A DNA stretch of 50,967 nt from Candidatus Hinthialibacteria bacterium OLB16 (GTDB taxonomy: Bacteria; Hinthialibacterota; Hinthialibacteria; OLB16), in assembly GCA_001567115.1 (NCBI GenBank), contig LMZT01000042.1, positions 1-50,967 on the forward strand. Direction: 5' to 3'. The notes beneath the pieces were generated by a model, which saw nothing but the letters and a program-made list of their open reading frames with translations, did no database searches and was not told the DNA's origin. A program made the translations under genes and the position numbers. Position 1 is the first letter of the stretch; every line of letters starts with the position of its first letter. Shown piece by piece: positions 4,238-35,234 of the stretch.

Positions 4238-4352
4238 GGCCCGAATTTCCTAAAATATCCAGGGCCGATCATTGTTCAAATGGCTCCGGGGAGGTCACCC
4301 GCCCGGCCTTTCCAAAAAGATTTCGCCACAGCACTTTTCCAGGAGGTTTGCC

Positions 4353-6682
4353 ATGCATGTTTTTCCCCTTTCTGCTGCACCACTTCTCCGTTGGATTCTT
4401 CCATCCTCCATCCTTCCCCTCTTGTCTCTGCTTTGCTGCATAGCCCTTGCCGCGGATTCACCCGCTCCGGAAATGAATGTGGACAGCCACTCCAGGTCCA
4501 AATTGAAAAAGATGAGCCTCGAACAGCTTTTCCAGCAGCCTCCTGCTGAATGCCGTATGCTGCAGATCATTCACCCATTTCCGGATGATCCGGAGGGCAA
4601 TCCCTACCGGGAGTTCGTGGCTCCCTATCGAGAGAAGCATCCGGACCATTCTCCAAGTGCCTGGCTGGCTGACTTCCTGAAGGATTATGGTTATGGCGGT
4701 GTTGTCGCCAATGTGTCCTTCGCGGACTACCTGCTGAGTGAAAAGGCCTGGGAGGTCTTTCTCCAGGGGCTTCGGGACTGCCGGGAGCGCGGGCTGCTGG
4801 TGTGGCTGTATGATGAAAAAGGATACCCCAGCGGCAAAGCGGGCGGCCTGACACTGCAGCAGCACCCCGAATTTGAGTGCCTGGGCCTGCTCTGCAGCCG
4901 GTCCGAAGGCCAGGGGGCGATTCACCATTCCTTCCCGCAGGGTGAGAGGTATGTGGGAGATCCTCTTCGTGTTGCCGCAGCCCCGTTGAAGGATGGGAAA
5001 CCGGATTTGAGCCGTTCGATCGATCTTCCGGACAGCACCTGGCGGGGAGCAGCGGAAGTGACCTGGCAGGCGCCGGATAGCAATGCCTGGGTGGTGATGT
5101 CGTTTCATGTCAAGCGCATGTATGAAGGGACTCACATTGTCACCAACCTTTCGGATCCGCTGCCTTATATCGACATCATGAACCGTGATGCTGTCGCACG
5201 ATTTATCGAGCTGACCCACCAGGCCTACTACAACCGTTGCGGCAAAGACCTGTGGAGCTGCATCGATGCCATCTTCACCGATGAGCCCTCGCTTATGGTT
5301 GGCTACCTGAGAGATGATCCGGGGCTGCTTCCGGCGCTTCCCTGGAGCCAGGATTTCGAAAAGGCATTTGCTTCGATGAATGGTTATGACCTTTCATCGA
5401 AACTGCCGGGCCTCTACTTTGAGGGTGGTGAGGAGAGCGCCTATGCCCGCCTGGACTTCTGGCGGCTTGTTTCGAAGCTGGTGGAGGAGAACTACTACGG
5501 CCAGATTCAGGACTGGTGCCAAGAGCATGGAATCGCATCCTCGGGGCATACCTTGCTCGAGGAGGGGCTGTATTACCATGTCCTGTTCGAAGGCAACCTG
5601 TATCAGAACCTTCGCCGCATGGACATCCCCGGCATCGATATCCTTAGCTCGGACCCGGAGGAACTGGCCCACTCCAATCAGCTCCCGGTGCCCAAGTTTG
5701 TCAGCTCGGTAACCCATGCCCTTGGAAAGAAAAAGTGCCAGAGTGAAACCTCCAGCCATGTGCAGCGTACAGGAAACAAGCCCTGCTCTTTTGAGCAGCG
5801 CCTCGGGACCATCAACTGGATGTTTACATTGGGGTTGAACACAGTGACTTCCTACTACTGGCCGGGAGAGTTCTCGGATTCCGAACGGCGTCTTTTCAAC
5901 GACCACATCGGAAGGCTGGCTGCGCTGCTTTCCGAAGGGCAGCATGTGGCCGATCGAGCGGTTTATTATCCTGTCCACAGCATGTGGGCCAGCATCACCC
6001 CGACCGCGGCGACAGCATGGCAGCCCCCTCTCGGGGAACGCGCCAGAAAAGTGGACCGCAATTTCAGCCTGGCCTCCCAGGACCTGCTGGCCAGGCAGCT
6101 GGATTACGATTTTGTCGATGATCAGGCGATCCTCGAAGCGGAGATCAAAGAGGGCACGCTGGCACTGCATGGAGAAGCTTTCAGCTGCCTGGTTTTGCCT
6201 GAGGCCTGGGTGATCCCTCTTGCAGTTTTTGAGAAGGTGCAGCGATTTGTCGAAGCAGGTGGCGCCCTTGTCGTTATCGGGGACCTGCCGGAATTGGCCG
6301 ATCAGTCGAAAGACACAATCCGTGTTCGAGAAATCACTCAGAACCTGCGCCAGTCTCCACGTGTCGCCATCTGTCCTGAAGTCAACACCCTGTCGGACAC
6401 TGTCGCAAAGATGTCGCAGGTCGATCTGCTGCTGGACAGCCCCTGCAGGGAAATGTTCTACCACCACTGCCGCTACCAGGGAAAAGACATTTATTTCATC
6501 TCGAATAATGGGCCTGCTGAAGTTCAGCGCAATGTGGCTTTCAGCTGCAGTGGAAAGGTTGAAAAATGGCACCCCTCGACAGGAATGATCGACCTTTGAC
6601 GGCATCTGGGGATGAAAAGGCAACCCTGCAGTTGGATTTCAAACCCTTTGAAGGCTACTTTGTGGTTTTCTCAAAGGGATGA
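4353..6682 (+). CDS. Secreted TIM-barrel glycoside hydrolase (GH106/GH42-like), one-base frameshift near 6590
   Basis: The start at 4353 follows AGGAGG by six bases and opens a clear signal peptide (hydrophobic to about residue 34, ending ALAADS). The mature part has features of large bacterial glycosidases: YDEKGYPSGKAGG, a probable catalytic acidic pair in FTDEPS (E311), SGHTLLEEGLYYH, and NTVTSYYWPGEFSDSE. A later segment near HVADRAVYYPVHSMW resembles a GATase-like accessory domain. The frame stops at 6597-6599, but codons for a matching C-terminal strand (TASGDEKATLQLDF) continue in another frame to TGA at 6680-6682. Restoring one base near 6588-6592 gives about 776 residues. The family assignment is tentative; the substrate is unknown. 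The restored 3' end overlaps the convergent RND pump gene by 12 bp. Confidence 0.7.
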
Positions 6683-12374: not shown

Positions 12375-12417
12375 AACCTGATCCATCGGCAGGACCGGCC
12401 GCCTTGCTGCAGGTGTG

Positions 12418-12444
12418 TTGCAGAAGGTGTGTTTCACGTATAAT
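12418..12444 (+). promoter_or_regulatory. Candidate promoter directly in front of the HAD phosphatase gene
   Basis: TTGCAG (12418-12423), a 15-base spacer and TATAAT (12439-12444). The proposed GTG start at 12454 begins only nine bases after the -10 box, so a transcript starting at the usual distance would have almost no leader. No ribosome binding site is visible. Confidence 0.45.
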
Positions 12445-12453
12445 TTCCCCCTT

Positions 12454-13330
12454 GTGACAAACATCAAACTGGTCGCCTTTGATCTGGATGGAACCCTGCT
12501 GGATTCCCATAAGCGGATTCGCAAGGATGCGGCCATCGCGATCGAGGATATTCAGGCTTCAGGGGTGTATGTCACCCTGGTGACCGGGCGAAGCTATGCG
12601 GCCACTGTGGGCTATGCGCGCCAGTTGAACCTGTCGGTTCCCTTTCGGCCTTTTCCATGGAGCTCTGGTCAAGGATTTGAATGGCCTGGAAATCGCAAAA
12701 CGGGCGATTCCCTCGGGAGGTGTGCGGGAGGCGATTCGGCAGGCAGGTGAATTTGAATGCATCCCGATGATCCTGGGCATTCAGCCAGAGGGTGGTGTTA
12801 CCTTCAGTGAGGAGGACCGCCACCACCCGGCTGTCCAATTTGTCATTAAACTGGAGCAACAGGAAAACCCTGAGAGCATCCTCCATTTTCATCCTCGCAC
12901 AGAAATCCGGCTTGATGCGTATACTGTCTATATCATGGGGCACAAAGCCCGCCTGATAGAGATGCTGGAGGCCATCCATCGCCAGCCAGTACGGGTCTTC
13001 AATGCCGAGAGGTTTCCGGTCTATACCGGGGGCCAGCAGGAAACGGGCCTCGAAGAATACGAGGTGGCGATGCTCTCCCCGATCGGTGCCGATAAGAAAT
13101 TCGCTCTTGAAACCATCGCCGACTCACTGGGTGTGGCGATGAAGGATGTGCTCGCTTTCGGGGATTGGCATAATGACATCCCCATGCTTCAGGCAGCCGG
13201 ATCGGCGGTGCTGATGGGGAATGCTCCGGCGGGTATTGTTGAAAAAATCCAGCATCCAAATCTCTACCGGACCGGTCCGAATGACGGTTCAGGAATTGTC
13301 GATGCCCTGAGGCGGTTCGGCCTGGGTTAA
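12454..13330 (+). CDS. HAD-superfamily Cof-type phosphatase, one-base frameshift near 12643
   Basis: Read across the break it encodes about 292 residues. Motif I is AFDLDGTLLDS, motif II VTGRS, and motif IV AFGDWHNDIPML, followed by the usual Cof ending (VLMGNAP, then NDGSGIVDALRRF). These enzymes dephosphorylate small sugar phosphates or cofactors in the cytoplasm. The upstream frame (from GTG 12454) and downstream frame join if one T of the TTT at 12643-12645 is removed, giving VPFGLFHGALVKDLNG, which is what the family has at this point. The GTG start is chosen because the -10 box lies just before it. The stop overlaps the convergent FG-GAP gene within a shared TTAA. Confidence 0.8.
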
Positions 13331-14412
13331 ATGGCTTTGCCCAGATTCCGGAACAGATAAAGCCCTTCTTTTCCCGGAGCGACAATGTCCTTCCAGCCAT
13401 TCCCATCCAAATCCGTGACCCAGAAATAAATTCCGGCCCCACTCGACACTTCGGGATCTCCATAATCCACTGTGAAGCGTTCAAACCGGCCCTTGTTTAT
13501 TTTGAAATAATACAGCCCGATCGGATCGAGTTCTCCGGGGTCGCGCCCACAGTGTGCCCGGTAACGCTGGCCGGTGATCAGCTCCAGTTCTCCATCATTA
13601 TCGATATCGGCCAATTGCAGATCATGATATTGGGAACGGTATGGATCGATATCATGTTTGATCCAGGAGCGTTCGCCTTTGGAATCGATCCGCTGCTCAT
13701 ACCAGGCAAGGCCATAATTGTGCGCCTGGCCGACAATCAGATCGGCAAGCCCATCGCCATTCACATCATGAACCAGAATCGGAACACTGGCGCATCCCAG
13801 ATCAAATTCGGGATGCCAGCTCCATCTGGCCTGGAAAGTTTCCTCAGGCGCTTTGAGCCAGCCGGTGGAGAGGATAATCTCCCCGCGCCCATCTCCATCG
13901 ATATCTCCAAACCCCAGGCCATGGCCGCTGGGGAAATCATTGATGACGAACTTGTCGAAAGCCTCGCGTCCCCTTCCCTGCTCGTCACGCTGGAGCTTGT
14001 AAATCGCCTGCGGGACGCCGGGGGTGTTCGGGACTATTTCGACATGGCCATCGCCATCGACATCCCAGAAACGGATGGTTTCAATGCTGCCGGGCCGGTC
14101 GATATCATGCACAGCCCATTCGCAATGCTGCCCATGGGGGTTTTCGATCCATCGCAGGGTCTCCCCCCACCAGCCACCGGTGATGATGTCCAGGTAACCA
14201 TCACCATTGACATCCATGGGATAGTCACAGAAATCATCATAATAATCCTCGACCTGCTGGATCGGGCGAATTTTATGTTTCTTTCTGAAATCCGGGCCTT
14301 CGAACCAATACTCTCCGGAAACGATATCCAGAACTCCATCGTGGTTGACATCAAAGACCGATGCCGCCTCACTGGTCACATTCCCGATCCGGGTCTTTTC
14401 AAAGCGCAACAT
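13327..14412 (-). CDS. FG-GAP/VCBS repeat protein (calcium-binding beta-propeller)
   Basis: About 361 residues if the ATG at 14412 is used; a GTG at 14430 would add six. There are at least six repeats carrying calcium-loop motifs: DVNHDGVLD, DVNGDGYLD, DVDGDGHVE, DIDGDGRGE, DVNGDGLAD, DIDNDGELE and DLDGNGWKD. Together they should close a propeller. No signal peptide is seen, which is unusual because most such propellers are extracellular. It is the third gene of an apparent operon (oxidoreductase, HEAT protein, this gene). Function is unknown; ligand or sugar binding is a guess from the context. Confidence 0.8.
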   Translation of the reverse strand: MLRFEKTRIGNVTSEAASVFDVNHDGVLDIVSGEYWFEGPDFRKKHKIRPIQQVEDYYDDFCDYPMDVNGDGYLDIITGGWWGETLRWIENPHGQHCEWAVHDIDRPGSIETIRFWDVDGDGHVEIVPNTPGVPQAIYKLQRDEQGRGREAFDKFVINDFPSGHGLGFGDIDGDGRGEIILSTGWLKAPEETFQARWSWHPEFDLGCASVPILVHDVNGDGLADLIVGQAHNYGLAWYEQRIDSKGERSWIKHDIDPYRSQYHDLQLADIDNDGELELITGQRYRAHCGRDPGELDPIGLYYFKINKGRFERFTVDYGDPEVSSGAGIYFWVTDLDGNGWKDIVAPGKEGLYLFRNLGKAI

Positions 14413-14439
14413 GGCGGCCTCACTTTCCACCCGAAAGGT

Positions 14440-16578
14440 TCAGGGTTTCTTTTGTGTAAACGAAACGGGCACTCCCTCCGGAGAGAGGATGCGGACACAA
14501 AATTCCCAGGGCATGGCATTCTGATAAACCTTGAGCAGGAGGGTGTTAATGCCCTTCTTGAGATGGACCGGTATCTTATCCCGATCGAGGACCAGGGCAC
14601 CCTGAGTAAAGTTATCGAGGACCAGGCTGCTGTTAAACCAGACCTTTTCACCGTCATCGACACCCAGGCAGAGGACCGCATCGGCTTCCTCCGAAACTTC
14701 AATCTCAGTATAGGCATAACACAGGCAGGCCTGGCAGTCGGCGACCTCCTTAAGGAGATCCACCTTGCCGATATCGGCGGATCCCTGAACCCGTTTCCAG
14801 GCGGCCTGTTTGTCTCCCGAGGGATAGGTCGCAGCCAGATCGACATTCGGTTCGCCAATCAAAGCCTGATCCCAGCCGGATTTATCCTCTCCGAGAGGGA
14901 ATGGGCCAACCACCCACCATTGGGTGACAAAGCCGACCATTTCGGCGACATTGAGTGAGGGATCGAGTTTCTGAAGGCCAGCGGCTGCGGCGGCAAGATC
15001 CTGGGCGCCGGGTGTGATTTCGAGGATTTTTTTGTAAACCACCATAGCTTTGTCCCCCTGGCCGGCAGCGACCAGTGTTCCTGCCAGAGCCTGCAGGGCT
15101 GGAAATACAACATCCCTGAGGCTTTCGACCTGCGCAGCTGCCAGGATGGAATCCAGGGACTCAGGAGAAGGGTTGGATGCCATGCCTTTGAGCGCTTCAC
15201 GACGCTGGGAGTCATCCTGCGCCAGCTGGTACAAGGTGTTCATTGCACGTGAGGCTTCGTTCCGGACTCCATGCGCCGAACAGGCCTGCCCGACTGTCAG
15301 CAACCCTCGCAGCGCCAGCTTCTTTTCTTCATCGTTGCCACTCCGTGCAAACTCTTCAAGGACCGGGATTGCCGATGGCTGGCCTGAAACACCGAGTCCT
15401 TCCAGCCCCGCTTTGCGGAAGGCAGGATCGGCAGATCGGGCGGCTGCCACCAGATGAGGCAGTGTGCTTTCATCATTCTTTGCTGCCAGAATCGGCAGCA
15501 GGGCGATTTTTGTGGGGGTGGCGGCCTGAGGGAAAAGGGAAACCATCCGGTGAGTGGCGGCTGCGCCACGCAGTTGTGACAGGGCATGCAATCCAATGTG
15601 GAAACCTTGCGGGTCACCTGGATCGAGGGACCCGAGGATTAGATCGACATGCCGTTCATCACCGATTTGGCCTAAGGCGGATATAACCGCCTGCCAGGAA
15701 GGCCCGCTTGAGGTTTTGAGCAGTTCGCCATATTCCCGGACCACCGCCTCCCAGTTTCCTCCCCTGGCTGTCATCGCTTCGAGCAGCCGGAGGGTTGCAT
15801 CAAAGGAGTCGAATCGGCTCTCGCCTGTCGCATTTTGGCGGACCGAACGTGCAAGCGCGAGATAAGAGGGGTCTCCTGTCCAGGACAGAGCACGAATCGC
15901 CGCTGCCTGAACCTCCGGAGTTCCAACAACCGCCAGCCGGATAATGATCTCCAGCCCTTCGGCATCTTTCATTTCTCCCAGCGAGTTGAGCAGGGCCACC
16001 TGGAAAAGAGGATCGGCGGATGCAACCGCGGACCGCAGGGCATTTCGAGCTTCCCCGGTGTTGATGCGCTGAAGGGCGGTGCGTGCTTTTTCGCGCAGGT
16101 TATTGTCGGCAAGAAGTCCGGCGATGGGCGCCACATCATACCCGGGCGGAACCAGCCGCTCGAGCAACCGCAATCCGGCCACCTTGTCCTTTTCGGATCG
16201 ATCAGGAGCAATCAGAGGAACCAGCTGATCGGCCAATTTCTTTCGGTCTTTCTCGCGTCCCGGAGCAGAGACATCATTGATCAGCTGGAGAATGATGTCA
16301 CAGGCGGCTTTGGAGAGTTTCTCATCCTTGCCCGAGAGAAGCTGAAGCATATCCGGAACCACGCGCAGCCCCAGACTCGGGAGCCGCTGGCGAGCCAGGG
16401 CCTGGGACTGGGGATTTCCTCCCTTGAAATCCTCGAGGAGATTCCGGAGAGGCGGCTCTGTGGCTTGAGCTCCCTGGATCGAGATGAACCATAAAGCCGA
16501 CAGGAATACCAGAGACTTTCCGGGTAAAGACCGGATTAACGCACCCGGCCCTTCAGGTAAAAATGATTTTACACGCAT
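14440..16578 (-). CDS. Secreted HEAT-repeat protein with C-terminal jelly-roll-like domain
   Basis: 712 residues, preceded by GGGAG. The signal peptide ends about residue 40 (IQGAQA). From about 45 to 530 there are many helical pairs of the HEAT type (for example RNAL, VQAAAIRALSWTGD, KKLALRGLLTVG). The last 160 residues (WWVVGPFPLGEDKSGWDQ, then LCLGVDDGEKVWFNSSLV and HLKKGINTLLLKVYQ) form a module common at the end of planctomycete-type exported proteins, probably carbohydrate-binding. It lies 15 bp after the oxidoreductase and about 27 bp before the FG-GAP gene, so the three are likely co-transcribed. It probably acts as a scaffold; no catalytic residues are seen. Confidence 0.75.
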   Translation of the reverse strand: MRVKSFLPEGPGALIRSLPGKSLVFLSALWFISIQGAQATEPPLRNLLEDFKGGNPQSQALARQRLPSLGLRVVPDMLQLLSGKDEKLSKAACDIILQLINDVSAPGREKDRKKLADQLVPLIAPDRSEKDKVAGLRLLERLVPPGYDVAPIAGLLADNNLREKARTALQRINTGEARNALRSAVASADPLFQVALLNSLGEMKDAEGLEIIIRLAVVGTPEVQAAAIRALSWTGDPSYLALARSVRQNATGESRFDSFDATLRLLEAMTARGGNWEAVVREYGELLKTSSGPSWQAVISALGQIGDERHVDLILGSLDPGDPQGFHIGLHALSQLRGAAATHRMVSLFPQAATPTKIALLPILAAKNDESTLPHLVAAARSADPAFRKAGLEGLGVSGQPSAIPVLEEFARSGNDEEKKLALRGLLTVGQACSAHGVRNEASRAMNTLYQLAQDDSQRREALKGMASNPSPESLDSILAAAQVESLRDVVFPALQALAGTLVAAGQGDKAMVVYKKILEITPGAQDLAAAAAGLQKLDPSLNVAEMVGFVTQWWVVGPFPLGEDKSGWDQALIGEPNVDLAATYPSGDKQAAWKRVQGSADIGKVDLLKEVADCQACLCYAYTEIEVSEEADAVLCLGVDDGEKVWFNSSLVLDNFTQGALVLDRDKIPVHLKKGINTLLLKVYQNAMPWEFCVRILSPEGVPVSFTQKKP

Positions 16579-16593
16579 GAATCGGACTCCCTC

Positions 16594-17859
16594 TTAGAGG
16601 TGCCAGGGGGCACGGTATGGGCGGTAGAGGTAACGATTGGCCTGCTCATCGCCAACGAATCTTTCATTCTCTCCATCCCACACCAGACGACGCCGAAGGT
16701 CAACCGCGATATTTCCCAGCAGGCAGACACTGGCTGAGCGATGGCCGATTTCGACATCTGCTGCGGGCAACTGCCTTGTTCTCATGCACTCGAAGAAATT
16801 GGTGTGGTGCTCCTCGAGCCGGATAAAAAACTCCCCTTCGGAACGGTAGCCGGGAGCGAGTCCCTCCGGTTCGAGCACCATGCTTTCCCGATTGACATAC
16901 AGGCTCCCCTGAGTGCCCCGGAACAGGGTGCCATATCCCTTCCCCGCATAACTTTCGCTGGACAGCTGGCTCCAGGTCAGAGTGCTTCCGGGAAACTCAT
17001 AGACCACCTGCAGCATCTGCTGGTCATCGCCCGGGAGAGAGAGCGGGCTGACACCTGTTCCCTGGATGCTGAGCGGGGCATCCTGCCCCAGCCCCCACAG
17101 GGAGATATCCATGAGGTGAACACCCCAGTTGGTCATTTCTCCACCGGCATAATCATCAAAGGCGCGGAACTTGCCGAAACGCTGCGGGCTGAATGGGACC
17201 CAGGGAGCCGGCCCCAGCCACAGATCCCAATCCAGGCCGGCAGGAGGATCCTGAGGAGTTTCCACCACATCGGTCCAGTGTTCGCCGACATTGGGAGACA
17301 CCCAGGCGCCGGAGTGGGTCACCTGGCCGAGTTTTCCTGAACGCAGAGTGTCGATGGAACGCTTGAAGACCTCCATCGAACGCTGCTGGATGCCATTCTG
17401 AACCACCCGTCCATAACGGCGTGCGGCCTGAACCACTTTGCGGCCTTCGAAGATCGTGGTGGTCAATGGTTTTTCGACATAGACATCTTTGCCGGCTTCG
17501 CAGGCATGAATGGTCATCAGGCCATGCCAGTGATCAGGTGTCACAATGAAGACGGCATCGATATCTTTGCGTTCGAGGATCCTTCGGTAGTCCTGATAGC
17601 CAGTGCAGCGTTCGCCGGTGCGTTTGACGAATTCCTCATAGCGCGGAATAAAGGCATCACAGACAGCCGCGACCTCGACATCGGGCCGTTTCACGAGGTG
17701 GGTCATGTGGGCGGTCCCCTGGCCGCCACAGCCGATCAGGCCGACCGTGATTTTTTCATTGGGGGAAATCGATCCGCGGGCGGCACGGGCATTCATGCCA
17801 TTCCAGGCAAGTCCAGCCGCCCCGAGGCCGATGGATTGCAGAAAGGAACGTCTTTTCAT
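16594..17859 (-). CDS. Gfo/Idh/MocA oxidoreductase with twin-arginine signal
   Basis: The ATG at 17859 is preceded by CAGGAG and starts MKRRSFLQSIGLGAAGLAW, a twin-arginine export signal. The NAD(P)-binding Rossmann motif follows (VGLIGCGGQG), with the family hallmark EKPLTTT and a C-terminal domain (WGVHLMDISLWGLG). Length 421 residues, normal for this group. These enzymes oxidise or reduce sugars or inositols, and the exported ones often keep their nucleotide cofactor tightly bound. First gene of the three-gene minus-strand operon. Confidence 0.9.
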   Translation of the reverse strand: MKRRSFLQSIGLGAAGLAWNGMNARAARGSISPNEKITVGLIGCGGQGTAHMTHLVKRPDVEVAAVCDAFIPRYEEFVKRTGERCTGYQDYRRILERKDIDAVFIVTPDHWHGLMTIHACEAGKDVYVEKPLTTTIFEGRKVVQAARRYGRVVQNGIQQRSMEVFKRSIDTLRSGKLGQVTHSGAWVSPNVGEHWTDVVETPQDPPAGLDWDLWLGPAPWVPFSPQRFGKFRAFDDYAGGEMTNWGVHLMDISLWGLGQDAPLSIQGTGVSPLSLPGDDQQMLQVVYEFPGSTLTWSQLSSESYAGKGYGTLFRGTQGSLYVNRESMVLEPEGLAPGYRSEGEFFIRLEEHHTNFFECMRTRQLPAADVEIGHRSASVCLLGNIAVDLRRRLVWDGENERFVGDEQANRYLYRPYRAPWHL

Positions 17860-18056
17860 AGAAGCTCCTGAAAATAACATTCTGGACAGAGGCCATCACC
17901 ATTCTTAACCATCTGTCTCCAATCATTCGAGAATAAATAACGATTCAGGTGGATGATTGTATCCCGGTTAATTGCATATCCCCGGAATGGAAAATCATTA
18001 TCCAGCCAGGGGTTCAGTTTTTCAACAGCCGCTTCCGGTGGGTGGCTCCGAATTGA

Positions 18057-18110: not shown

Positions 18111-20258
18111 TTATACAGCTGCCGGGGACAGTTCCATGCAGCGGCGGATGCCATCGGCCACCCGGTTGGCATTGGGCACGAAAGCATCTTCGAGGTTTGC
18201 CGCCATCGGCATGACGCCATCCGGGGCGGTCACTGAGACAAAAGGCAGCTTGAAATCGACACGCTGCTGGACCTTGCTGTATACAGTGTGGACGATATTC
18301 CCGGAATCGGTTCCCTGGGAGACGCACACCAGGTGGCGTGTTTTCTTCACCGATTCGACAATGGTGTCCAGATCGAGAGGGACTGTGGTGCGCGGGTCGA
18401 TCAGCTCGACATTGATCCCTTCACGCTCGAGCCGGCGTGCGGCATTGAAAGCCACATGCAGCATCCGGGAATAGGCCCAGACAGTCACATCGGAGCCTTC
18501 TTTGATGATGCTGGCCTGCCCGAAGGGAATGGCATAACGCTCCTCGGGGACATTGGCGCCGAAAGTCGCGCCGCCATACAGCAGCTGGTGCTCGAAAAAC
18601 AGCACAGGATCCTCGCTGTAAATCGCCGAGTTGAGCAGCCCCTTGGCATCGAAGGGGGTGGCCGGCACACAGACAATCAGGCCGGGCATGTTGGAGTATT
18701 TGGAGACCAGCTCCTGGCCATGCTGGCAGGAATAGCCTTTGCCGCCACCGATGGTGGTTCGCACCACCATGGTGCGCTTGGCTTTGCCGCCATACATATA
18801 GCGTGCTTTGGCCGCCTGGTTCTGGATCTGGTCTTCAGCCTGAGCCAGGAAGTCATTGTACATGATCTCACACACCGGGATGACATAACCGGTCATGCTG
18901 GCTCCCAGGGCAAATCCGACAATGGCTCCTTCCGAAAGGGCTGTGTCGAAGTTTTTATCGAGGCCAAACTTCTCAGTCAGGCCCGCGGTGACTCCGAAAG
19001 CGCCGCCATAAGGGCCGACATCTTCCCCGAAGGAAATCACCCTCGAATCGGCTTCGAAAGCCTGTGCCAGGCTTTCATTGATGGCATCTTTTATGGAAAG
19101 CTTGCGCTCTGTGGCGGCTTCCGAAAAGTGGTTGTACTTTTTCAGGGTGTTGTAGACTGGATCGAAGTTATAGGAGTAGACATCATCCAGCATGGTTTCG
19201 ACTGGAGGTTCGGGGGACTTCCAGGCGAACTGGACGGCTTCATCGATTTCAGCCTGGATATCCGCTTTGACTTTGTCGATATCCTCTCGGGTCATCACAC
19301 CGGCATCGAGCAGCTGGGCTTCATACTTGCGGATGCAGTCCTGTTCCATCCAGATCTTCTCTTCTTCATCGCTGCGGTAGGTCTTGCAGGAATCAGAGAG
19401 AGAATGGCCTTTGTAACGCATCACCATCATGACCAGCAGGGCGGGGCCATTTCCCTTGCGGGCATAATCCACATAACGGTCATAGGCATCCCAGCAGGCC
19501 AGCACATCGGTTCCATCGATCACTTCGCCGGGGATGTTGTAGCCCCAGGCGCGCACTGCGCAGTTTTCAATGTTGGTCACATCTTCAAGGCGGCCGGTCA
19601 TGGCCGCGCCATTGTCCTCAACCACGAACAGGCAGGGGACCTTCATGGCCGAGGCCATGTTGAGGGTTTCATTGAAAACGCCCTCCTGGACAGCGCCATC
19701 ACCAATGAAGGAGATGACCACCTGGTCTTTCCCGCTGAATTTGACACCCATGGCAGCACCGCCGGCAATGGAGAGGCCGCCGCCGACAACCGCATTCGCA
19801 CCGAGATGATTTCGCTCAAACTCGGCCACGTGCATCGAGCCGCCCTTGCCCTTGCAGCAGCCGGCTTCGCGCCCGAACATTTCGGCCATCATCGATTTGG
19901 TGTCGGTCCCTTTGGCGATCGAGTGGCCATGGCCGCGATGATTTGATGTGATGAAATCATCCTCGCGCAAAGCAACCGAAATGGGGGCCTCGGCAGCCTC
20001 CTGGCCAACACACAGGTGGGTTGCGCCACGGTACTTGATGGTCTTGTCTTTATAGGCTTCGTTCTTGAGTTCACCGATGGTGGTATCGAAGGTGCGGATT
20101 CTCACCATCACCTCGAGCAGTTTTTTAGCCTGCTCGGGAGTCATACGCCCTTCGGCGAGGATCTCTTTCAACGGTTTGTGGAACTGATAAGTTGGAATCG
20201 GTGGAGCGGTCAAAAATCCTGGCTCATTCCGATAAGGACGAACATGCGTCTTCGGCAC
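18111..20258 (-). CDS. Thiamine-diphosphate 2-oxoacid dehydrogenase E1, alpha and beta subunits fused
   Basis: About 715 residues. The alpha half (to about 380) carries the heart of the ThDP-binding motif, GDGAVQEG near 185 and VVEDN about 25 residues on, plus HRGHGHSIAKG. The beta half (about 390 onwards) has ISFGEDVGPYGG, a transketolase-type pyrimidine domain and a C-terminal domain (LIDPRTTVPLDLDTI). Both normally separate chains are in one frame. It decarboxylates pyruvate or a branched-chain 2-oxoacid and passes the acyl group to an E2 lipoyl protein; acetoin dehydrogenase is an alternative. No E2 or E3 gene lies nearby. I prefer the GTG at 20258 over the TTG at 20264 because AAGGAG then sits eight bases upstream. 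Confidence 0.85.
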   Translation of the reverse strand: MPKTHVRPYRNEPGFLTAPPIPTYQFHKPLKEILAEGRMTPEQAKKLLEVMVRIRTFDTTIGELKNEAYKDKTIKYRGATHLCVGQEAAEAPISVALREDDFITSNHRGHGHSIAKGTDTKSMMAEMFGREAGCCKGKGGSMHVAEFERNHLGANAVVGGGLSIAGGAAMGVKFSGKDQVVISFIGDGAVQEGVFNETLNMASAMKVPCLFVVEDNGAAMTGRLEDVTNIENCAVRAWGYNIPGEVIDGTDVLACWDAYDRYVDYARKGNGPALLVMMVMRYKGHSLSDSCKTYRSDEEEKIWMEQDCIRKYEAQLLDAGVMTREDIDKVKADIQAEIDEAVQFAWKSPEPPVETMLDDVYSYNFDPVYNTLKKYNHFSEAATERKLSIKDAINESLAQAFEADSRVISFGEDVGPYGGAFGVTAGLTEKFGLDKNFDTALSEGAIVGFALGASMTGYVIPVCEIMYNDFLAQAEDQIQNQAAKARYMYGGKAKRTMVVRTTIGGGKGYSCQHGQELVSKYSNMPGLIVCVPATPFDAKGLLNSAIYSEDPVLFFEHQLLYGGATFGANVPEERYAIPFGQASIIKEGSDVTVWAYSRMLHVAFNAARRLEREGINVELIDPRTTVPLDLDTIVESVKKTRHLVCVSQGTDSGNIVHTVYSKVQQRVDFKLPFVSVTAPDGVMPMAANLEDAFVPNANRVADGIRRCMELSPAAV

Positions 20259-20325
20259 AGTCAAAACTCCTTCAATCTACCTGGGAAATGAATCCTGGGT
20301 GTGTTTTTTATGGGAACAACCGGTT

Positions 20326-25315: not shown

Positions 25316-28300
25316 TCATTCTTCAGGAATGATTCGAGCGGTCACCAGGATCAGCAGGTTCTGAGTGGTCTCGATATCGCTCTTTTCGGTGAACAGAGGA
25401 GCCAGCCCCGGGATGAAGCCGAACAGCGGAGTTCTTCCCTCGACATGGTTGATCTGACGGCGGAGCAGGCCACCCATCACCAGTGTGGAGCCATCTTTGA
25501 CACGCACGCGCACCACGGCTTCACGGGTGTCCGTGGCGGGTTCGCCGATTGGATCAAGCCCGCCGGTAATCGGATTCGGAATCGGGAGGCGGTCTCCGGG
25601 AACAGTGAGTTCCGGCTGAAGTTCCAGCTCGATATGGCCATCCCCGGTCACTGTTGGAATGGTATCCAGGGTAAAACCAAACTCAGCCGATCCCGGTGTT
25701 GACTGGATCACAGGAGTGTTGCTGCCAGCCGGGAGGACCGCGGTCTGGCTTTCGATAAACGGAATAGTTTCACCCAGGAAGACATGGCCCTGGCGGCCGG
25801 ACACAACTGTCACCTTCGGAGCGGTGAGGATGCGGATATCGGAAAACTGCGCCAGGAAGTTGAGGGTTGCGTCGATGGTGGTGCGCCCAAGGGTGGCCAG
25901 TGTCAATGACGACCCAGCCGGGTTGTTCGGCCTGCTGACAAGATCCATGGCAGCATCGGCAAGAGTGAATCCGGGGCCTGGCTCATCATTGTCATCCAGC
26001 TCGAGGATATTGGAAATCGCCATGGTCACACCGAATGAATCGGTGGAATCATAGGACAATTCGACAAGGCGAACCTCAATTTCAACCTGGTCAACCGGAA
26101 CATCCAGCCGGTTGATGAGGTCTTCGGCTTTATCGAGGTCGGAGAGGCGGAAACCGGCGATAACCATCTGCTTGGTCTGGATGTCGGCGGTTATAATGAC
26201 TGGAATCATGCCAAGCATTCCATATTGTGTGCTTTGTGTGGACTGGCTCTGCTGCTGCTGGCGGTCGGTCTGGGTGGTCTGCTGCTGCCCATCCTCACTC
26301 ATTTCAGTTCCGACAGACTGGTTGATATAAACCTGGAGCACCAGGCCCTGCAGCGCATAACCCAGCTCGGCCACATCACGCCTCTGGACAATGACTGTGC
26401 GGGTCAGATTGGTGGTTTCGGTAATCCCCTGGAGGTACTCCTCGATTTTGCGGAGGTTTTCAGGGGTATCGACCACATCGATGGTTCCCGCATCGAGATC
26501 GGGATACATGACACGCCCTTCGGCGGCGGCTTCCTCGATGCTCTGGCTGCCATACAGCAGGCTCTGGAACACCTGTTTGGTGAACTGGACCTGTTTACGC
26601 CTGCGCAGCTGGGCATCCGGGGTATCCGAACGAAGGTCCTCGGCAGGAACAACCTTGTATTTGCGTGCCTTCAGCTCGCGCTCGGAAACCTGCGAAACGA
26701 ACTTCGAATCCCGCATGAGCCGTTTGACCAGCTCGAGTTTGTCCGGTGTATGACGGATGATGAGGATGTTGGTTTTGTCATCAAAGACGAGATAGGGCTG
26801 GTCATCCTTGAAATCGGATTTGAATTCAGCATCCCCGAACAGCCTCAGGCTGATGATCCGGGCCAGATTTTGCGCCCCGGCTTTCGGCAGGCGGAAGGTT
26901 TCCACGATCAGGGGTTTGTTCTCGACCTGCAGGTTTCCCTGTTTGTAGAGGTCAAGGAATTGCTGGACCATCTCGACATTGTGGCGGCTGTCACGAACAA
27001 CCAGCTCCTGAAGGTGCTTGCTCAGGAAGAACTTCCTTCCTGGCACGGTTGCATCGACATCCTTCGATTCCACTTTGCCGAGAACAACACCGCGCAGCGC
27101 CTCGGAGGAATCATCGGTTTCTTTGCCGCCCGAGGCATCCATGGCAAGGCGTTTGAGGGCCTGATACTGCTCCTCGGTCAATGGAAACCTCTTGGTGACC
27201 AGATCCCGGGTGACCTCGATGATATTGGTCCCCGGCTGCCTGCGCCATGTGTAGCCATTCAGTGAAAGCACCTTGTCGAGAACCTGGCGGTAAGTCATTT
27301 CAGTGGTGCGCAGGGCATGGATGTCGCCATCCACACCTTCACCGGTGATGATCTGCAGATCCGCAATCGCCCCCATGGTGGAAAGGATCGAGGAGATATT
27401 GACACTGGTGTCCTGCTCGAGGCGGAAGGTTTTTTCGTTGAGCACCTGCTCGACACGCTGGTCCATGTCGGTCAAACGGGTCTGTTCCGAACGGCGGCGC
27501 TTGGCCTCGGCCTGCTCATCGGCATATTTTTCCAGCAGGTCCTGGGCGGTCGCATTGTTGGGATCGAGCTGGATGGCTTTCTCCCACATTTCATAAGCGG
27601 TCAGGATATCCCCTTTTTCATTGGCGCGAAGCCCGACCTCGATATACTCCCTGACTTTCTCATCGGAGGTAGTGGGAATGTTATATTCAGCCTGGGGAGC
27701 CGCCGGAAGCGCTTCGGCTGCTGGCGCAGCAGAGGCAGCCTTTTCGATTACATTCTGGGCGGTCGAGCCGGTTGAAACCGGAGCCGCCTTGCGATTCACA
27801 GAGGACATCGGCAAGGGGGCTTCAGGCGTATTCAACGCCACACCAGTCCCGGTCGGCCAGGACTGCTGAGCCAGGCTTCCCTCATCGGAAATTTCACTGA
27901 GCGGCTGCCCTTTGCCCTCGGGATTCCACGCCGGCAAGGGATCGATGCTTTGCGCTTTGAGGCCGAGTGAATCCGAAGATGCACTGGAGGAACCCACTGG
28001 CTCCGCCCAGGGATCACTCTGAACGGGATCGCTTTCCGCGATCAACGCCCTCAGGCTTTCAGGTTCTCTCTGGCTGGAAGGCGCATGGGTGGCTCCACCA
28101 TCGATCCGCTTGAGGTAGACCTGCGCACCCGCATAATCATTGGACTGGGGAGGAACCTGTTCGAGCAGTTCTTTCGCCTGCTCGGTATTCCCCTCGGCAT
28201 AGAGGTCGCGCCCGATCTCAAAGGCGCTTTTCGGTTTCTGGGTAATTTCTTCAACTGCATAAGGGGCCGAATGGGATGATTTGTCAGCGATGGCGGATTC

Positions 28301-29230
28301 CTGTTCCTGAGCCTGATCGAGGGCGACGCACTGCTCCAGGTATTCCTTCGAAGGGGCATGATCCGGCGCAATGTTGAGGACATGCTCAAAATGCAGCCGT
28401 GCCGCCTTGTATTCACCGGCATTGAAAGACTGAACACCCTTGTCAAATTCCGGGGCGATGGCAAATACGATGTCTGTGGAGTCGCCGGTGTTCCTTGCCA
28501 GGGCCGGACGGCCCTGAGTGCTGGAGCCGCGTTTGCCTTCAATGGCAAGGAGCCTTCTCTTTGCATCTTCCGAGTTGGGGAACAGGCTCAGCACATCCGA
28601 GTAATATTTGGAGGCCTGGTCGTAATCACCATCCTGCTCGGCTTTGAAGCCTTTCTGAAACAGGTCGGCTGCCTGGGCAAGGGCGACATCTTCAATGGAG
28701 GACTGCTTGCTCCTGGCTTCCTCAGGAAGCAGGAGGGAAGCAGCGCTGCTGTCATTTGGGGGAGCCGTGGAACCGGCGGATGCTGCAGGAGCTGGAGGCG
28801 GCGGTGGCGGGGAGGCCGAGACTGTCCGTGCTGCATTCTGCTCGGCGCGGTGCAGTGCGAGGGCCTGGCCGGCATGTCCTTCTGCCTGATTGAACAGGCT
28901 GGCGGCCTGGCGTGACTTGGTGATGCGTCCGCGCAGATCGGCGACAATCGCCGCTTCACCGGGATTGCCGGCATGTTGGTTGAGAGCCGCTTCCGCTTCG
29001 TCGAATTTGCCGCTGCTGATGAGATCCTGAATGACTGTTATCGGAATCCCCGAAGAGATCTGGCTGCTTTCCGGCTGGAACCCCTGTGGTGAATCGGCTG
29101 CCTGCGCCGCAACGATGGCACTGAACAGGAACACAAACAGTCCCAGATCAGTCCACCATCGGGAACTGGAACTCAGGCAGAATTTCAATTTGGATTTTTC
29201 GGCAGTGCGGGTATCAATTGGGCCTTGCAT
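25316..29230 (-). CDS. Large outer-membrane secretin with N-terminal TPR region (GspD/PilQ family)
   Basis: 1304 residues from the ATG at 29230, preceded by GGAGG; an earlier in-frame ATG at 29269 has no such site. A signal peptide with a long charged n-region ends near 45 (AAQAADS). About 50-400 is tetratricopeptide-like ([24 protein letters not shown]). Pro/Ser/Ala-rich linkers follow, then another TPR unit ([22 protein letters not shown]). Next come STN-like and N-domain segments, and a Gln-rich insertion ([15 protein letters not shown]). The secretin domain ends the protein ([77 protein letters not shown]). It forms the multimeric outer-membrane pore of the secretion/pilus system. It is separated by about 450 bp from the rest of the cluster. 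Confidence 0.92.
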
Positions 29231-29720
29231 CCAACAGGACCTCCGGAATCGGCAAAGAAAAGTTATCACGCTCTCAAATCAGCCCGAATCGACATGGCGA
29301 TGACGGACTTTCCCCCTACCATTTGATTGAAAGACGCGGATCCACATCAGGACCCAGATCTCTTATCCCCACCAAGCCACATAAACCGTGAACTGAATGG
29401 GTACACGAAACTTTCTAACCTCTGGCAGGCAACAACTTTCCGGACATCCCTGGCTGAAGGGCAACACTCCCCTTGTCGAGGGATCTTGCTGGTTTACTGG
29501 AAGTTGCTCTGCCGCAGCTTCATTTCAAATGTCCATTTCCTGGACCAAAAAAAATAGCGCCCGTTACACTATAAATTGAGTCGGAGCAAAGTTAATTCAG
29601 AAACCCGACTCTGTCAATCTGAACCACACCAAATCTCGAAATCCAATTCCAGGAAATATTTTTATTCTTTCTCTGGAATTCACTGACCGCGATCTTCCGC
29701 TTCATGAATTCAATATGAAT
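29231..29720. other. Intergenic stretch between secretin and PilO-position gene
   Basis: No gene is supported here. A tentative minus-strand promoter is visible: TTAACT at 29590-29595, 16 bases, then TATAGT at 29568-29573. It could drive the secretin gene with a leader over 300 nt. The 8-A run near 29547 and AT-rich 29630-29680 are otherwise unexplained. Confidence 0.4.
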
Positions 29721-31109
29721 TCAGCGCATTTTCTGGCGGACCCGTTTCCAGTCATTGGATGCCGCGGTCCAGCGCTTGTTGGCTTCCGGGCCACCCGGGG
29801 CACGGCGCACGCTGGGTTTTTTGCGCATCTCGTCGAGCTGGTCCATATTATCCGTCACTTTTTTCACCAGCTCGGCAGTATCTTCCTTGGCTTCAATCTT
29901 TTTCTTGATTTCCTCAATGTCTTTCTCCACCGCATCGAGGATGCCATTCATCTGGGTGACAATTTCGGCTGCTTCGAGTTTCTGGACATACCCATCATAT
30001 TCGCGCCGGTCACCGGCCGCTTTGGGATCCCCTAATTTTTCCAGAGTATCGAACTCCTTGAGGATCTGGTCCAGGACTTCACGGTTTTCCTGAAACTTCT
30101 CGGTGGTGGTGAGGTTGGTGATGTTCTGGCGGACCTGGGTGATGCGGGACTCTTTGCCGCTTTCGACTTTGGTCTGGATTTCCTGGAGACGGTCCAGCCG
30201 TGCCTGATCGAGGATGGTGCCATCCGGATCCAGCTGTTTGATCAGCTCCCGGAAGTCCCGCATCCGCTGAAGGACCGAGGCAACTGCGGCGGCATCGCTC
30301 TGTTCATTGATGCCGCTCCCGGCCTGCATGAGGGATTCATATTCCTGCCGGATCATCCGCAGGTTCATGTTCTCACGGGTCTGGCCAAGGCTTTCGAGCA
30401 GAGTTTTGGCTTCGGACAAACGGGAGTCTCCCCCCTGAGACAGCTCGGCGCAGTCAGAAACCAGTGAGGCTTCATCGATGGCCTGCTTGAGGGAGTTATA
30501 GGCTTTGTTGAGGGAATCCAGGCCCTTCATGAGATCGGACTGGTCGGGAGCGGCTGCGGCTTGAGCCGCAGATTTGGCTGCATCCACACCGGCAAGAAGA
30601 ACCTGTGTGGTTTGTTCGCAGACCAGATTGTTGAGAATCGTCTGGGGTGTGCTTGGCCACTGGATGATGCGTCCCTTGGGATCATCTTTGCAGTATTGAG
30701 TCAGTTTATCCCGGGCAGTTTTGGCATCTCCGGCGGTAATGGCGTCCTGGTAGTCTTTTTTCAGAGCCTCAAGACGTGTTTTGAGCTCGGTGTAATCCCC
30801 GGCCCGTGTCCAGATGGGGTTGCTGGATATAGCTTCGATATCTTTGATTTGAACCTGTTTGAAAATATCTGCGGCATGGCTGGGAGCATTGAGTGGGTTT
30901 TTCTTGACACCTTCGGCGGCGGGATCAGCCGGGGGAGCCGGAGGAACGATATCTTTCCATTTATCCTGCCAGATCTGGTCGGGATTGAGTTGCTTGACCG
31001 CCTGGCCTCTCTGGACAAAAAAGAAAACCCCCAGGCCGACCAGGATCACCAGGAGATAATCCCGGTACTTCATGAATTTGTTCCATATATCCAGAAGATA
31101 AGTCTTCAT
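29721..31109 (-). CDS. Single-pass membrane protein with long coiled coil in the PilO position
   Basis: 462 residues. There is one N-terminal transmembrane helix at about 18-34 (YLLVILVGLGVFFFVQRG). A Pro/Ala linker follows, then a mostly helical, charged periplasmic region with heptad-like stretches, especially about 340-430 (MNGILDAVEKDIEEIKKKIE). It starts 39 bp after the PilM-PilN gene, where pilO or gspM/pilP would lie in known systems. The helix-then-coiled-coil layout fits a PilO-like inner-membrane alignment protein, but the length and sequence are not those of canonical PilO. Function is inferred from position only. Confidence 0.6.
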   Translation of the reverse strand: MKTYLLDIWNKFMKYRDYLLVILVGLGVFFFVQRGQAVKQLNPDQIWQDKWKDIVPPAPPADPAAEGVKKNPLNAPSHAADIFKQVQIKDIEAISSNPIWTRAGDYTELKTRLEALKKDYQDAITAGDAKTARDKLTQYCKDDPKGRIIQWPSTPQTILNNLVCEQTTQVLLAGVDAAKSAAQAAAAPDQSDLMKGLDSLNKAYNSLKQAIDEASLVSDCAELSQGGDSRLSEAKTLLESLGQTRENMNLRMIRQEYESLMQAGSGINEQSDAAAVASVLQRMRDFRELIKQLDPDGTILDQARLDRLQEIQTKVESGKESRITQVRQNITNLTTTEKFQENREVLDQILKEFDTLEKLGDPKAAGDRREYDGYVQKLEAAEIVTQMNGILDAVEKDIEEIKKKIEAKEDTAELVKKVTDNMDQLDEMRKKPSVRRAPGGPEANKRWTAASNDWKRVRQKMR

Positions 31110-31148
31110 CGCCTTCTCATTTCGTTTGTTTCGATCCTGTTTTCAGGC

Positions 31149-33278: not shown

Positions 33279-33386
33279 GAGTTTTCAGACCTGTTTCTGA
33301 TGAAGATGGATTGATGTGTTGTGATCAACCTGTCTGATGATTTCTGCCCGTGTTCAAATATAACAAACCAGCAACACAACGACACA

Positions 33387-35168
33387 TTAATCCTGAGCGA
33401 ATTTCCCTTTCGCCTGTTTTTCCCCGGATTCCTGGGGTGATCGTGGGACAATCGAAACGATGCTTCCGCGGACTCCATCCCCCGCATCTTCGGTATCACC
33501 CAGGACATCGAGGCGTTTGCGGGTCAGCACTGTTCCCAACCGTTCAGTCACTTCCACCGGCATCCGAAAGGCAATCTGTGTCTCTGGAATGGGACGCAGA
33601 GCCTGGAAGTGGATGGTAGCCAAGGTCCCTCCCACTCGCAAGGGGCTTTTGAAAACTCCACATTCGAAAAGGATCTGGCCTTCATCATTGCGGACCATGT
33701 TGGTCCGGGTCCACTCAAATGGGAAGCGGTCATGGTAGGGGGCATCATGGATGTTCGTGCCCAGGGTGATCCAGTTCCCGTCATCTTCATCCACAACCTT
33801 GAGGAAACTGGGATCGAAGTGGATATCAAGCCGGATCTTGTCCCAGGGAACGCCTCGAGGATTGCTGATTTTGACATTCACCTGAAAGGTTTTTCCCGCC
33901 TGAATGACAGTGGCTTGAGGATCGAGATAAATCCGTGTGCCTGCCTGGCCTTTGGGAAGTTTTTCAGCCTCTTTTTCAAGGGCCGCCAGGTAATCACCCT
34001 TGAGTGTCATGTGGCCGCTGATCACTCCATCTTTGGCGGAAGAGGTGCTCCCGAGCAGATTCACCCATCCATCCGCTGAGCCGGCATCGGAAGTTTGCCC
34101 CCCGACAAAGGTCATTTCTTTCGGCCACTTCCAGGTCTGATCGGATTGAACCGGGGGCGCGAGGTTCTCCGGCCAGTCGGCGAACACAAAGCGGAGTCCG
34201 GTCTGTTCGATGGGAGCAAGGGCTTTGAATTTCATGGTGATTACAAAACCATGGCCGGTGGTTTTATCCCCGGTCGGGCAGCGTGCACGGTAATAGATCA
34301 TCCCATTGGCAGGGTCGACCATGTTGAGATAAAAGGGATCTTCGGCAGGATCCCGTACCAGAGGGAGGCCGGAGCGAATTTTTTCGGAGAGGTCATAGGC
34401 ATTCGGCACCCCCCGCATCCCGCCAGGAGGATCGATATATTCAAGGGTGCGCGGATCGAATGCCAGCGCCAGGGAGACCACTTCAAAGGGTTTATTTTTG
34501 GGATTATCGAGCCAGACATGCACAGGGAAAATATCACCCACATCGGCTTTCTGGTCCATCGGAGCGACACGGAGGGTGATCTGCCCTTCAGGTGGAATCC
34601 CGCCGGTTGGCTTGGCTTCCTGCCCCTGTCCGGGTGCGCCTTTGCCGGGAGCGGGTTTCCTTCCTGTTCCGGGCCTGGCACCAGGGACTCCCGGAGCACC
34701 GGGAACAACAGGTTGAGGAACACCTGGTTGGACGACGCCGGGTTGCGGCTGGAGAGGTTGTGGGGGTGGAACAGGCGGGGCATCCATTGCCGGAATATTC
34801 ATGATCTGCTGCTGTTGTGGTGGTGGAGCCGGGGGAGCCTGGACCGGAGCGGTCTGACGCGGTTCTTCACGGGTTCGGCCGGTGTTGCGCCGTCGATTGA
34901 AAATGGAATCCCGGGACCGCCCGGAACCGAACTGGGCCTCGGCAGGCAGGGTCAGAAGGACATCAATCCCTAAAAGTGAAATGATCAGCAGCAGGCAAAA
35001 CCAGCGTGATTTTTCCCGGGGGGAACCAGAGGCATTCCGGATAATTTCAGGGAAGGCCGCACCCCGGATTCCAGAATTCTTCTGCCAATAAAATAGTACA
35101 GGTTTCGAGGCCACTGCCCCCCTCGCTGGAAGCTTGTCGATTTCTTGAGACTGGCTTGGGAGGCTCAT
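33387..35168 (-). CDS. Exported protein with two cohesin-like domains
   Basis: 593 residues from the ATG at 35168, chosen because GGGAGGGGG lies five bases upstream; the frame extends to 35228. The single hydrophobic segment is at about 55-77 (WFCLLLIISLLGIDVLLTL), a late signal peptide or anchor. A Pro/Gln/Gly-rich linker follows (about 100-190). First cohesin-like domain: about 195-345 (DVGDIFPVHVWLDNPKNKPFE, LALAFDPRTLEYID, VITMKFKALAP). Second: about 405-560 (VIQAGKTFQVNVKISNPRGV, LDIHFDPSFLKVVDED, TLATIHFQALRP). Cohesin-like folds in secretin clusters are thought to bind partner proteins; they need not relate to cellulosomes. It lies 66 bp after the sigma-54 activator and 108 bp before PilM-PilN. 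Confidence 0.8.
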   Translation of the reverse strand: MSLPSQSQEIDKLPARGAVASKPVLFYWQKNSGIRGAAFPEIIRNASGSPREKSRWFCLLLIISLLGIDVLLTLPAEAQFGSGRSRDSIFNRRRNTGRTREEPRQTAPVQAPPAPPPQQQQIMNIPAMDAPPVPPPQPLQPQPGVVQPGVPQPVVPGAPGVPGARPGTGRKPAPGKGAPGQGQEAKPTGGIPPEGQITLRVAPMDQKADVGDIFPVHVWLDNPKNKPFEVVSLALAFDPRTLEYIDPPGGMRGVPNAYDLSEKIRSGLPLVRDPAEDPFYLNMVDPANGMIYYRARCPTGDKTTGHGFVITMKFKALAPIEQTGLRFVFADWPENLAPPVQSDQTWKWPKEMTFVGGQTSDAGSADGWVNLLGSTSSAKDGVISGHMTLKGDYLAALEKEAEKLPKGQAGTRIYLDPQATVIQAGKTFQVNVKISNPRGVPWDKIRLDIHFDPSFLKVVDEDDGNWITLGTNIHDAPYHDRFPFEWTRTNMVRNDEGQILFECGVFKSPLRVGGTLATIHFQALRPIPETQIAFRMPVEVTERLGTVLTRKRLDVLGDTEDAGDGVRGSIVSIVPRSPQESGEKQAKGKFAQD

Positions 35169-35234
35169 TCTCTCCCCCTCCCGTTTTGAGGCTGTCAAAG
35201 AGTTCACCTTTTGTTTGAACAGCCTCACTGGAAA

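Follow-up and report, generated by a model that had tools for sequence, protein, structure and literature searches.

Oxidoreductase, HEAT-repeat and FG-GAP propeller genes in Candidatus Hinthialibacteria bacterium OLB16: a candidate cassette for oxidative glycoside breakdown

What function could unite a sugar oxidoreductase, a repeat scaffold and a propeller protein in one short row of genes? The question is raised by a locus on contig LMZT01000042.1 (assembly GCA_001567115.1) of Candidatus Hinthialibacteria bacterium OLB16, whose 4.05-Mb draft genome comprises 181 contigs; the whole stretch analysed (positions 1 to 50,967; 50,967 nucleotides (nt)) is referred to as the window. On its minus strand, from 17859 to 13327, genes for a Gfo/Idh/MocA oxidoreductase (Gfo), a HEAT-repeat protein (HEAT) and an FG-GAP propeller (FG) follow one another in a single common reading frame, with intergenic gaps of 15 and 9 nt:

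16594 to 17859, minus strand: Gfo/Idh/MocA oxidoreductase with twin-arginine signal (MKRRSFLQ...), the open reading frame (ORF) opening at 17880; assigned by Pfam, with relatives 8tdf and 8tdh
14440 to 16578, minus strand: HEAT-repeat protein of 712 residues, bearing a Sec-type signal peptide and, at its C-terminus, a jelly roll; assigned by Pfam and a model
13327 to 14412, minus strand: FG-GAP/VCBS propeller protein without signal peptide; 361 residues from the ATG, 367 from a GTG at 14430

An initial annotation of the window had taken these closely spaced genes for a dedicated extracytoplasmic sugar-processing or sensing unit. Our analysis leads to a more specific reading, to which we give about even weight: the trio would be a version of a widespread cassette in which Gfo oxidises, the HEAT/jelly-roll protein binds and FG eliminates, glycosides being broken by oxidation and not by hydrolysis.

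The gene layout and the family assignments of the initial annotation are borne out. Both the N-terminal Rossmann and the C-terminal alpha/beta domains of Gfo exceeded their Pfam cut-offs (GFO_IDH_MocA, 1e-23, 84.7 bits vs. a cut-off of 24; GFO_IDH_MocA_C2, 2.5e-25, 89.9 bits vs. 23.3), which makes it a member of the Gfo/Idh/MocA family, and a twin-arginine motif (RRSFLQ) is visible by eye in its N-terminus, in agreement with the proposed export by the twin-arginine (Tat) route. The Gfo ORF covers 16594–17880, with the ATG of MKRRSFLQ at 17859 as the likelier start. HEAT, annotated as a secreted repeat scaffold, matched HEAT_2 (1.4e-21) and carries a Sec-type signal by eye. FG matched FG-GAP_3 (1.1e-27), and its repeats and propeller fold place it among the VCBS/FG-GAP propellers; within its ORF (13327–14430), the ATG at 14412 is a likelier start than the GTG at 14430. 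Only nine codons lie between the HEAT stop and this ATG, in line with the annotated lack of a signal peptide.

Gfo, HEAT and FG genes recur together across genomes

Scanning a genome collection with a HEAT profile returned 80 named loci. A same-strand Gfo gene was located within 200 nt of 46 of the 55 ORFs that combine HEAT repeats with the jelly roll (upstream in 40), compared to an adjacent Gfo at 5 of the 33 ORFs with the jelly roll only (upstream in one). Three of the nine HEAT/jelly-roll ORFs lacking an adjacent Gfo (L110, L119, L121) correspond to split HEAT genes, with Gfo one gene further off. Gfo–HEAT pairs were found in Planctomycetota, Verrucomicrobia, Lentisphaerae, Hydrogenedentota, Armatimonadetes, Abditibacteriaceae, KSB1, Calditrichia and Nitrospiraceae, as well as in six of the 14 genomes of the window's phylum (twice each in G000, the window genome, and G007; also in G001, G002, G008 and G013). 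The paired Gfo proteins cluster on a quick tree, with 8 label changes vs. a shuffled mean of 26.2 and none of 500 shuffles as low.

Two of the pairs in the phylum showed further peculiarities. Both genes of the second pair in the window genome (contig C14, L033:8810–12331) contain apparent frameshifts, and this pair is so either decayed or mis-assembled. 3′ of the G002 pair (L029:10356–12964) lie two genes without a Pfam match at 1e-5, the first of which resembles, by eye, a metal enzyme of the PHP type.

FG relatives were surveyed in 47 genomes chosen because they hold HEAT loci. At E-values up to 1e-25, relatives occupied 71 places in 34 of these genomes, and all 71 neighbourhoods were examined. 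HEAT adjoined (within 2.5 kb) or was fused to FG at 20 places, Gfo was present at 32, both at 17, and a gene for a 3-keto-disaccharide hydrolase, ThuA or a TIM barrel at 14; these adjacency counts are lower bounds, as some neighbourhoods are cut by contig ends and the partner profiles were home-made from few seeds. The 17 places with Gfo, HEAT and FG together or fused are spread over 14 of the 47 genomes and include L211, where FG lies on the other strand. Such co-occurrence is what the initial annotation had asked to be checked; it supports the 'dedicated sugar-processing' part of its proposal, while no support was obtained for 'sensing'.

The exact order Gfo–HEAT–FG is found at L212, L214 and L215, and at L223, where the contig ends truncate the two outer genes; at L208, L228, L244 and L246, the order is FG–Gfo–HEAT. 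HEAT and FG are fused into single genes at L054, L217, L218, L221, L222 and L257, and HEAT–hydrolase–FG fusions occur at L219 and L220. On a tree of 87 of the 91 FG rows (one duplicate and three short rows dropped), HEAT–FG fusions sit at five places and the HEAT-linked label changes 12 times vs. a shuffled mean of 18.2 (0 of 500 as low). The window's phylum has 22 strong FG places (E 2e-61 or better), and all of them except G013:C767 were viewed. Of these 21, one is the window trio, one is a HEAT–FG fusion in G004 (L054), and five, from five genomes of the window's class (L068–L072), are fusions of a 3-keto-disaccharide hydrolase to FG-GAP, as checked with Pfam for L070; apart from the window and G004, no place showed HEAT within 2.5 kb.

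Linked families, the oxidoreductase and the jelly roll

Non-repeat domains fused to 56 HEAT proteins (window plus 55 of 65 ORFs) were ThuA (nine cases), 3-keto-disaccharide hydrolase (three), AP_endonuc_2, FG-GAP_3 and ERAP1_C (one each). Once duplicates, very short or Gfo-like entries and some others had been set aside, 71 of the 98 listed neighbours were scanned; the commonest families among them were AP_endonuc_2 (nine) and 3-keto-disaccharide hydrolase (five). For instance, the row at L105 reads Gfo, HEAT–jelly roll–hydrolase, a second Gfo, TIM barrel and FG, and a G007 locus has a ThuA match ~465 nt after the HEAT match. The window genome as a whole contains 16 hydrolase-family matches and seven to ThuA, of which two are fragments that share a contig.

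BT2156–BT2160 of Bacteroides thetaiotaomicron constitute a C3-oxidation glycoside pathway. A second example, described in PMC10628242, is the Agrobacterium tumefaciens GlycDH-OGE-HYD-Gfo operon. Its products are a glycoside dehydrogenase of the flavoenzyme type, a pair of 'sugar phosphate isomerases/epimerases' and an oxidoreductase of the Gfo family, which degrade glycosides by C3 oxidation, beta-elimination on a TIM barrel with Mn2+, and then hydration and reduction; there, the flavoenzyme performs the first oxidation and Gfo the last reduction. In these pathways, a Gfo-type oxidoreductase works with TIM-barrel, hydrolase or ThuA partners, as in part of the loci related to ours, where linkage to a TIM-barrel eliminase/epimerase, a 3-keto-disaccharide hydrolase or ThuA is seen. 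In contrast, Gfo is accompanied here by a conserved HEAT/jelly-roll protein of exported type, and the place that an eliminase could take is filled by an FG-GAP propeller. The fused and neighbouring ThuA, hydrolase and TIM-barrel domains suggest C3-oxidation (3-keto-glycoside) chemistry for a unit that the initial annotation could match to no named pathway.

Among solved structures, Gfo is closest to 8tdf (E 4.8e-31) and 8tdh (E 2.2e-29), both named just 'dehydrogenase', which we take to belong with the glycoside 3-dehydrogenases. Far weaker matches were obtained to the GH109-type enzymes 2ixa (7.4e-12) and 6t2b (6.6e-6), and to 5a02 (5.2e-11) and 1ofg (2.6e-8). GH109 and GFOR-type enzymes share the Gfo fold and are exported together with their cofactor. 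Of the 47 paired Gfo proteins whose start is complete, 39 show a simple Tat-like pattern. Three positions of Gfo, numbered from 17880, were compared with the 50 other paired Gfo proteins:

17470 to 17472, minus strand: codon of Lys137, in the EKP motif; Lys in 50 of 50
17128 to 17130, minus strand: codon of Asn251; Asp in 33 of 50 and Asn in 17 of 50, Asp in 8tdf
17116 to 17118, minus strand: codon of His255; His in 50 of 50

The EKP lysine (Lys137) and the catalytic histidine (His255) of the Gfo/Idh/MocA family are both present. The Asp/Asn variation at position 251 sits four residues before the conserved His, and this split possibly reflects two activity classes.

The C-terminal part of HEAT was modelled from an alignment of 66 sequences (window plus 65 of 78 regions), with a mean predicted local distance difference test score (pLDDT) of 95:

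14461 to 14934, minus strand: jelly-roll domain of HEAT, residues 549–706, GH2 sugar-binding/PA14-like fold; from the model and a structure search

The 50 structural matches shown were GH2-type enzymes, aligned in their N-terminal sugar-binding jelly roll (Z 11.4–13.1, root-mean-square deviation (rmsd) 2.4–4.1, 121–136 aligned residues), and Foldseek matches included sugar-bound PA14 lectin domains. Identity to these GH2 and PA14 domains is just 10–16%, and a Pfam scan of residues 549–706 gave no match of their own, with no PA14 or GH2 at E 0.1. By its predicted fold, then, the domain is a member of the PA14/GH2 sugar-binding jelly rolls, and the 'binding module' of the initial annotation is, in a confident model, a jelly roll of sugar-binding type.

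The FG-GAP propeller, its missing signal and the surrounding genes

Ranked by Z, the FG model (pLDDT 86.5, five sequences) best matched aldos-2-ulose dehydratase/isomerase (4a7k, 4a7y, 4a7z; Z 27.9, rmsd 3.7, 333 aligned residues, 18% identity), a VCBS propeller like FG itself, followed by CRTAC1 (9etn; 25.6) and integrins (up to 24.9). By Foldseek E-value, the top two change places, with 3.6e-11 for CRTAC1 as the first match and 3.0e-9 for the dehydratase as the next; when a profile built from 23 FG sequences was used, CRTAC1 (1.2e-13) likewise ranked ahead of the dehydratase (3.9e-7). The dehydratase is a 900-residue protein whose propeller is followed by further domains, a cupin and a lectin; FG (361–367 residues) is a propeller alone and has neither. 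A 2012 paper on the dehydratase reportedly describes zinc in the propeller and His155 as catalytic.

Four FG residues, numbered from the ATG at 14412, lie in four blades, each six residues ahead of a calcium-loop aspartate:

14368 to 14370, minus strand: codon of Glu15; kept in 23 of 23 aligned relatives
14080 to 14082, minus strand: codon of Glu111; 23 of 23, aligns with His155 of aldos-2-ulose dehydratase
13921 to 13923, minus strand: codon of His164; 21 of 23, aligns with His215 of the dehydratase
13624 to 13626, minus strand: codon of His263; 23 of 23, aligns with His337 of the dehydratase

Seven residues outside the calcium loops (E15, E111, H231, H263, R283, H287 and K348) are kept in all 23 relatives of the alignment used for counting. 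The H263–His337 pairing lies in a 14.6-bit segment. At the place of E111, the dehydratase has a His, while CRTAC1 has Arg (Ile in the other segment) there and Thr at that of H164. The main reason to think FG catalytic is the pairing of its conserved, pocket-type positions with histidines of the dehydratase, and we infer from these alignments that FG may be an enzyme. A weak match of FG to TcdB_toxin_midN, below the cut-off, reflects the shared propeller repeat, and a toxin reading was discarded.

The location of FG is a separate question, as the 'extracytoplasmic' of the initial annotation is doubtful for a window FG that has no signal. No signal peptide was seen by eye in another frame. Hydrophobic N-terminal segments are present in the FG genes of the exact trios L212, L214 and L215 and in the nearest FG, L209 (71% identity). 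Residues just ahead of the window ATG (ESEAA) resemble the stretch that follows the signal in L209 (EEEA), a likeness suggesting that the window FG is of a secreted type and has apparently lost its signal region against the HEAT stop. On the FG tree, it falls into a clade of 11 rows, seven of them HEAT-linked (support 97/94). This placement led us to reject its membership in a separate, mostly signal-less sister clade (L055, L203–L207, one of the two L208 FG genes, L213 and L216).

That sister clade is well supported, and its members begin with MPLK or a sequence like it. Near the FG genes of L055 and L216 lies a Gfo gene that lacks a Tat signal, and an intracellular Gfo–FG version may therefore exist.

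The window FG might either work inside the cell, leave it together with a partner, or form part of a HEAT–FG protein made by read-through; the last is unlikely, needing suppression of one TGA:

14440 to 14442, minus strand: TGA codon that ends HEAT; FG lies downstream, in frame with it

We considered whether HEAT–FG is one gene broken by this TGA, given the shared frame and the fused relatives. However, the three exact-trio relatives have separate, signal-bearing genes, leaving this as a minor possibility; an assembly error at the junction is possible.

Around the locus, a promoter-like pattern precedes Gfo:

17997 to 18025, minus strand: promoter-like site TTGAAA-17-GATAAT, 5′ of Gfo; a sequence pattern and weak evidence

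Three such sites were found in the region vs. 4.0 expected in shuffles, i.e. they are not enriched. A single 717-residue gene for fused pyruvate-dehydrogenase-type E1 alpha/beta (18111–20264, minus strand) lies 230 nt upstream of the Gfo ORF. A HAD phosphatase gene (12415–13330, plus strand), by eye split over two frames near 12700, is convergent with FG. Elsewhere in the window are a type II/IV pilus-like set (25316–35228, minus strand) with a secretin bearing TPR repeats, a PilM-like protein and a cohesin-domain protein, as well as GH106-like rhamnosidase and GH2 genes (4272–6599 and 46395–48620, both plus strand).

Proposed mechanism, alternatives and meaning

In the proposed mechanism, the Tat-type Gfo, with NAD(P) bound, would oxidise a sugar, most likely at C3, and so yield a keto-sugar, while the HEAT/jelly-roll protein would hold the sugar and the partner enzymes together. 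FG would then act on the keto-sugar: a metal at the propeller centre would polarise the carbonyl, and the glycosidic bond or a hydroxyl would be lost by beta-elimination, as in aldos-2-ulose dehydratase. The window FG, its signal apparently lost, would work in the cytoplasm or leave with a partner. On this view, the trio is one form of a recurring gene set that is probably a functional unit, serving the oxidative breakdown of glycosides. More tentatively, and with the balance tipped against it, the FG-GAP proteins of this family might be a new kind of enzyme, namely propeller metallo-lyases, mostly extracytoplasmic, that cleave 3-keto-glycosides or dehydrate keto-sugars. Their partner would be a Gfo oxidase, with HEAT/jelly roll as the scaffold, and the resulting oxidative route of glycan breakdown would complement or replace classical hydrolases in Planctomycetota, Verrucomicrobiota, Lentisphaerota, Hydrogenedentota and the window bacterium.

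Several observations weigh against this reading. Unlike in the C3-oxidation pathways, no 3-keto-disaccharide hydrolase, ThuA or TIM-barrel gene lies beside the window locus. Gfo scored 158.1 bits with the glycoside 3-dehydrogenase model NF058561 (BT_2158 family), well below its cut-off of 750, and has Asn251 where many paired Gfo proteins have Asp. At 30 of the 71 FG places, some of them close to contig ends, none of the sought partners is nearby, and the HEAT of L228, L244 and L246 is a weak match through the repeats only (1e-14 to 5e-9). The nine codons ahead of the FG ATG leave no room for a signal peptide. CRTAC1, for which we know of no enzyme activity, is the first Foldseek match and the better profile match of FG and only 2.3 Z lower than the dehydratase, and the E111–His155 and H164–His215 pairings share one 9.9-bit segment. 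Lastly, the initial annotation had let its proposal depend on the trio being present in related genomes, and within the 14-genome phylum no trio beyond that of the window was found among the 21 FG places viewed, and a HEAT–FG fusion only in G004; the exact trio is therefore not a fixed trait there. The Gfo–HEAT pair, unlike the trio, does recur in the phylum, and Gfo, HEAT and FG recur together in other phyla.

As an alternative, FG and HEAT might be non-catalytic, in which case the propeller would be a lectin or a scaffold for protein interactions, stabilised by calcium and presenting a glycan to the oxidoreductase and other enzymes. This is the foremost competitor, though on balance an unlikely one. 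The standing of CRTAC1 and the integrins among the FG matches fits it, as do the hydrolase–FG fusions of L068–L072, in which FG could be a binding module; lectins, integrins and aldos-2-ulose dehydratase are placed in one VCBS supercluster by Pereira and Lupas (PMC8023676). Yet the strictly conserved Glu, His, Arg and Lys of FG lie away from the calcium loops, and three FG positions align with His residues of the dehydratase, both of which argue for catalysis by FG.

Alternatively, Gfo alone might cleave glycosides in the manner of GH109, its bound NAD passing through a cycle that is redox-neutral, with HEAT and FG as accessory binding proteins. Its solved GH109-type relatives (2ixa, 6t2b) make this conceivable, yet these matches are far weaker than those to 8tdf and 8tdh and the linked partner families suggest enzymes for separate steps, so that we regard it as improbable. 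Less probable again is a reductive or transhydrogenase role of Gfo outside the cytoplasm, akin to glucose–fructose or aldose–aldose oxidoreductase and unrelated to glycoside cleavage: the Tat-type signal, the Gfo fold and the matches to 5a02 and 1ofg would suit it, whereas the linkage to HEAT, ThuA, hydrolase and FG would be left unexplained. That the trio is an accident of adjacency is hardly credible. Gfo genes abound in these genomes, a first look giving 37 to 120 candidates in each, and the other genomes of the phylum did not show the trio; however, HEAT–FG fusions are repeated, and the binomial tail for 20 HEAT linkages among 71 FG places is 1.8e-10 at a 5% background, the highest of three rates (0.6%, 2% and 5%) that were assumed and are not measured HEAT or Gfo densities. 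Together with the 46 of 55 HEAT/jelly-roll ORFs adjacent to Gfo, the FG–HEAT linkage led us to reject chance.

The HEAT/jelly-roll companion of Gfo as a multi-phylum cassette and the proposal of FG-GAP propellers as keto-sugar lyases seem to be new, our search of the available papers having found no title or abstract opening that describes the trio or the Gfo–HEAT pair; one paper, PMC10434189, contains the words DUF1080, gfo and HEAT repeat. Genes for Gfo, 3-keto-disaccharide hydrolases and FG-GAP proteins are numerous in Planctomycetes, Verrucomicrobia and their relatives, and most of them have, to our knowledge, no assigned role; a recurrent scaffold–oxidase–propeller unit offers a testable function for three families at once. 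Oxidative glycan breakdown may thus be widespread outside the gut and, if FG-GAP proteins are indeed lyases, many 'VCBS repeat' annotations would change their meaning.

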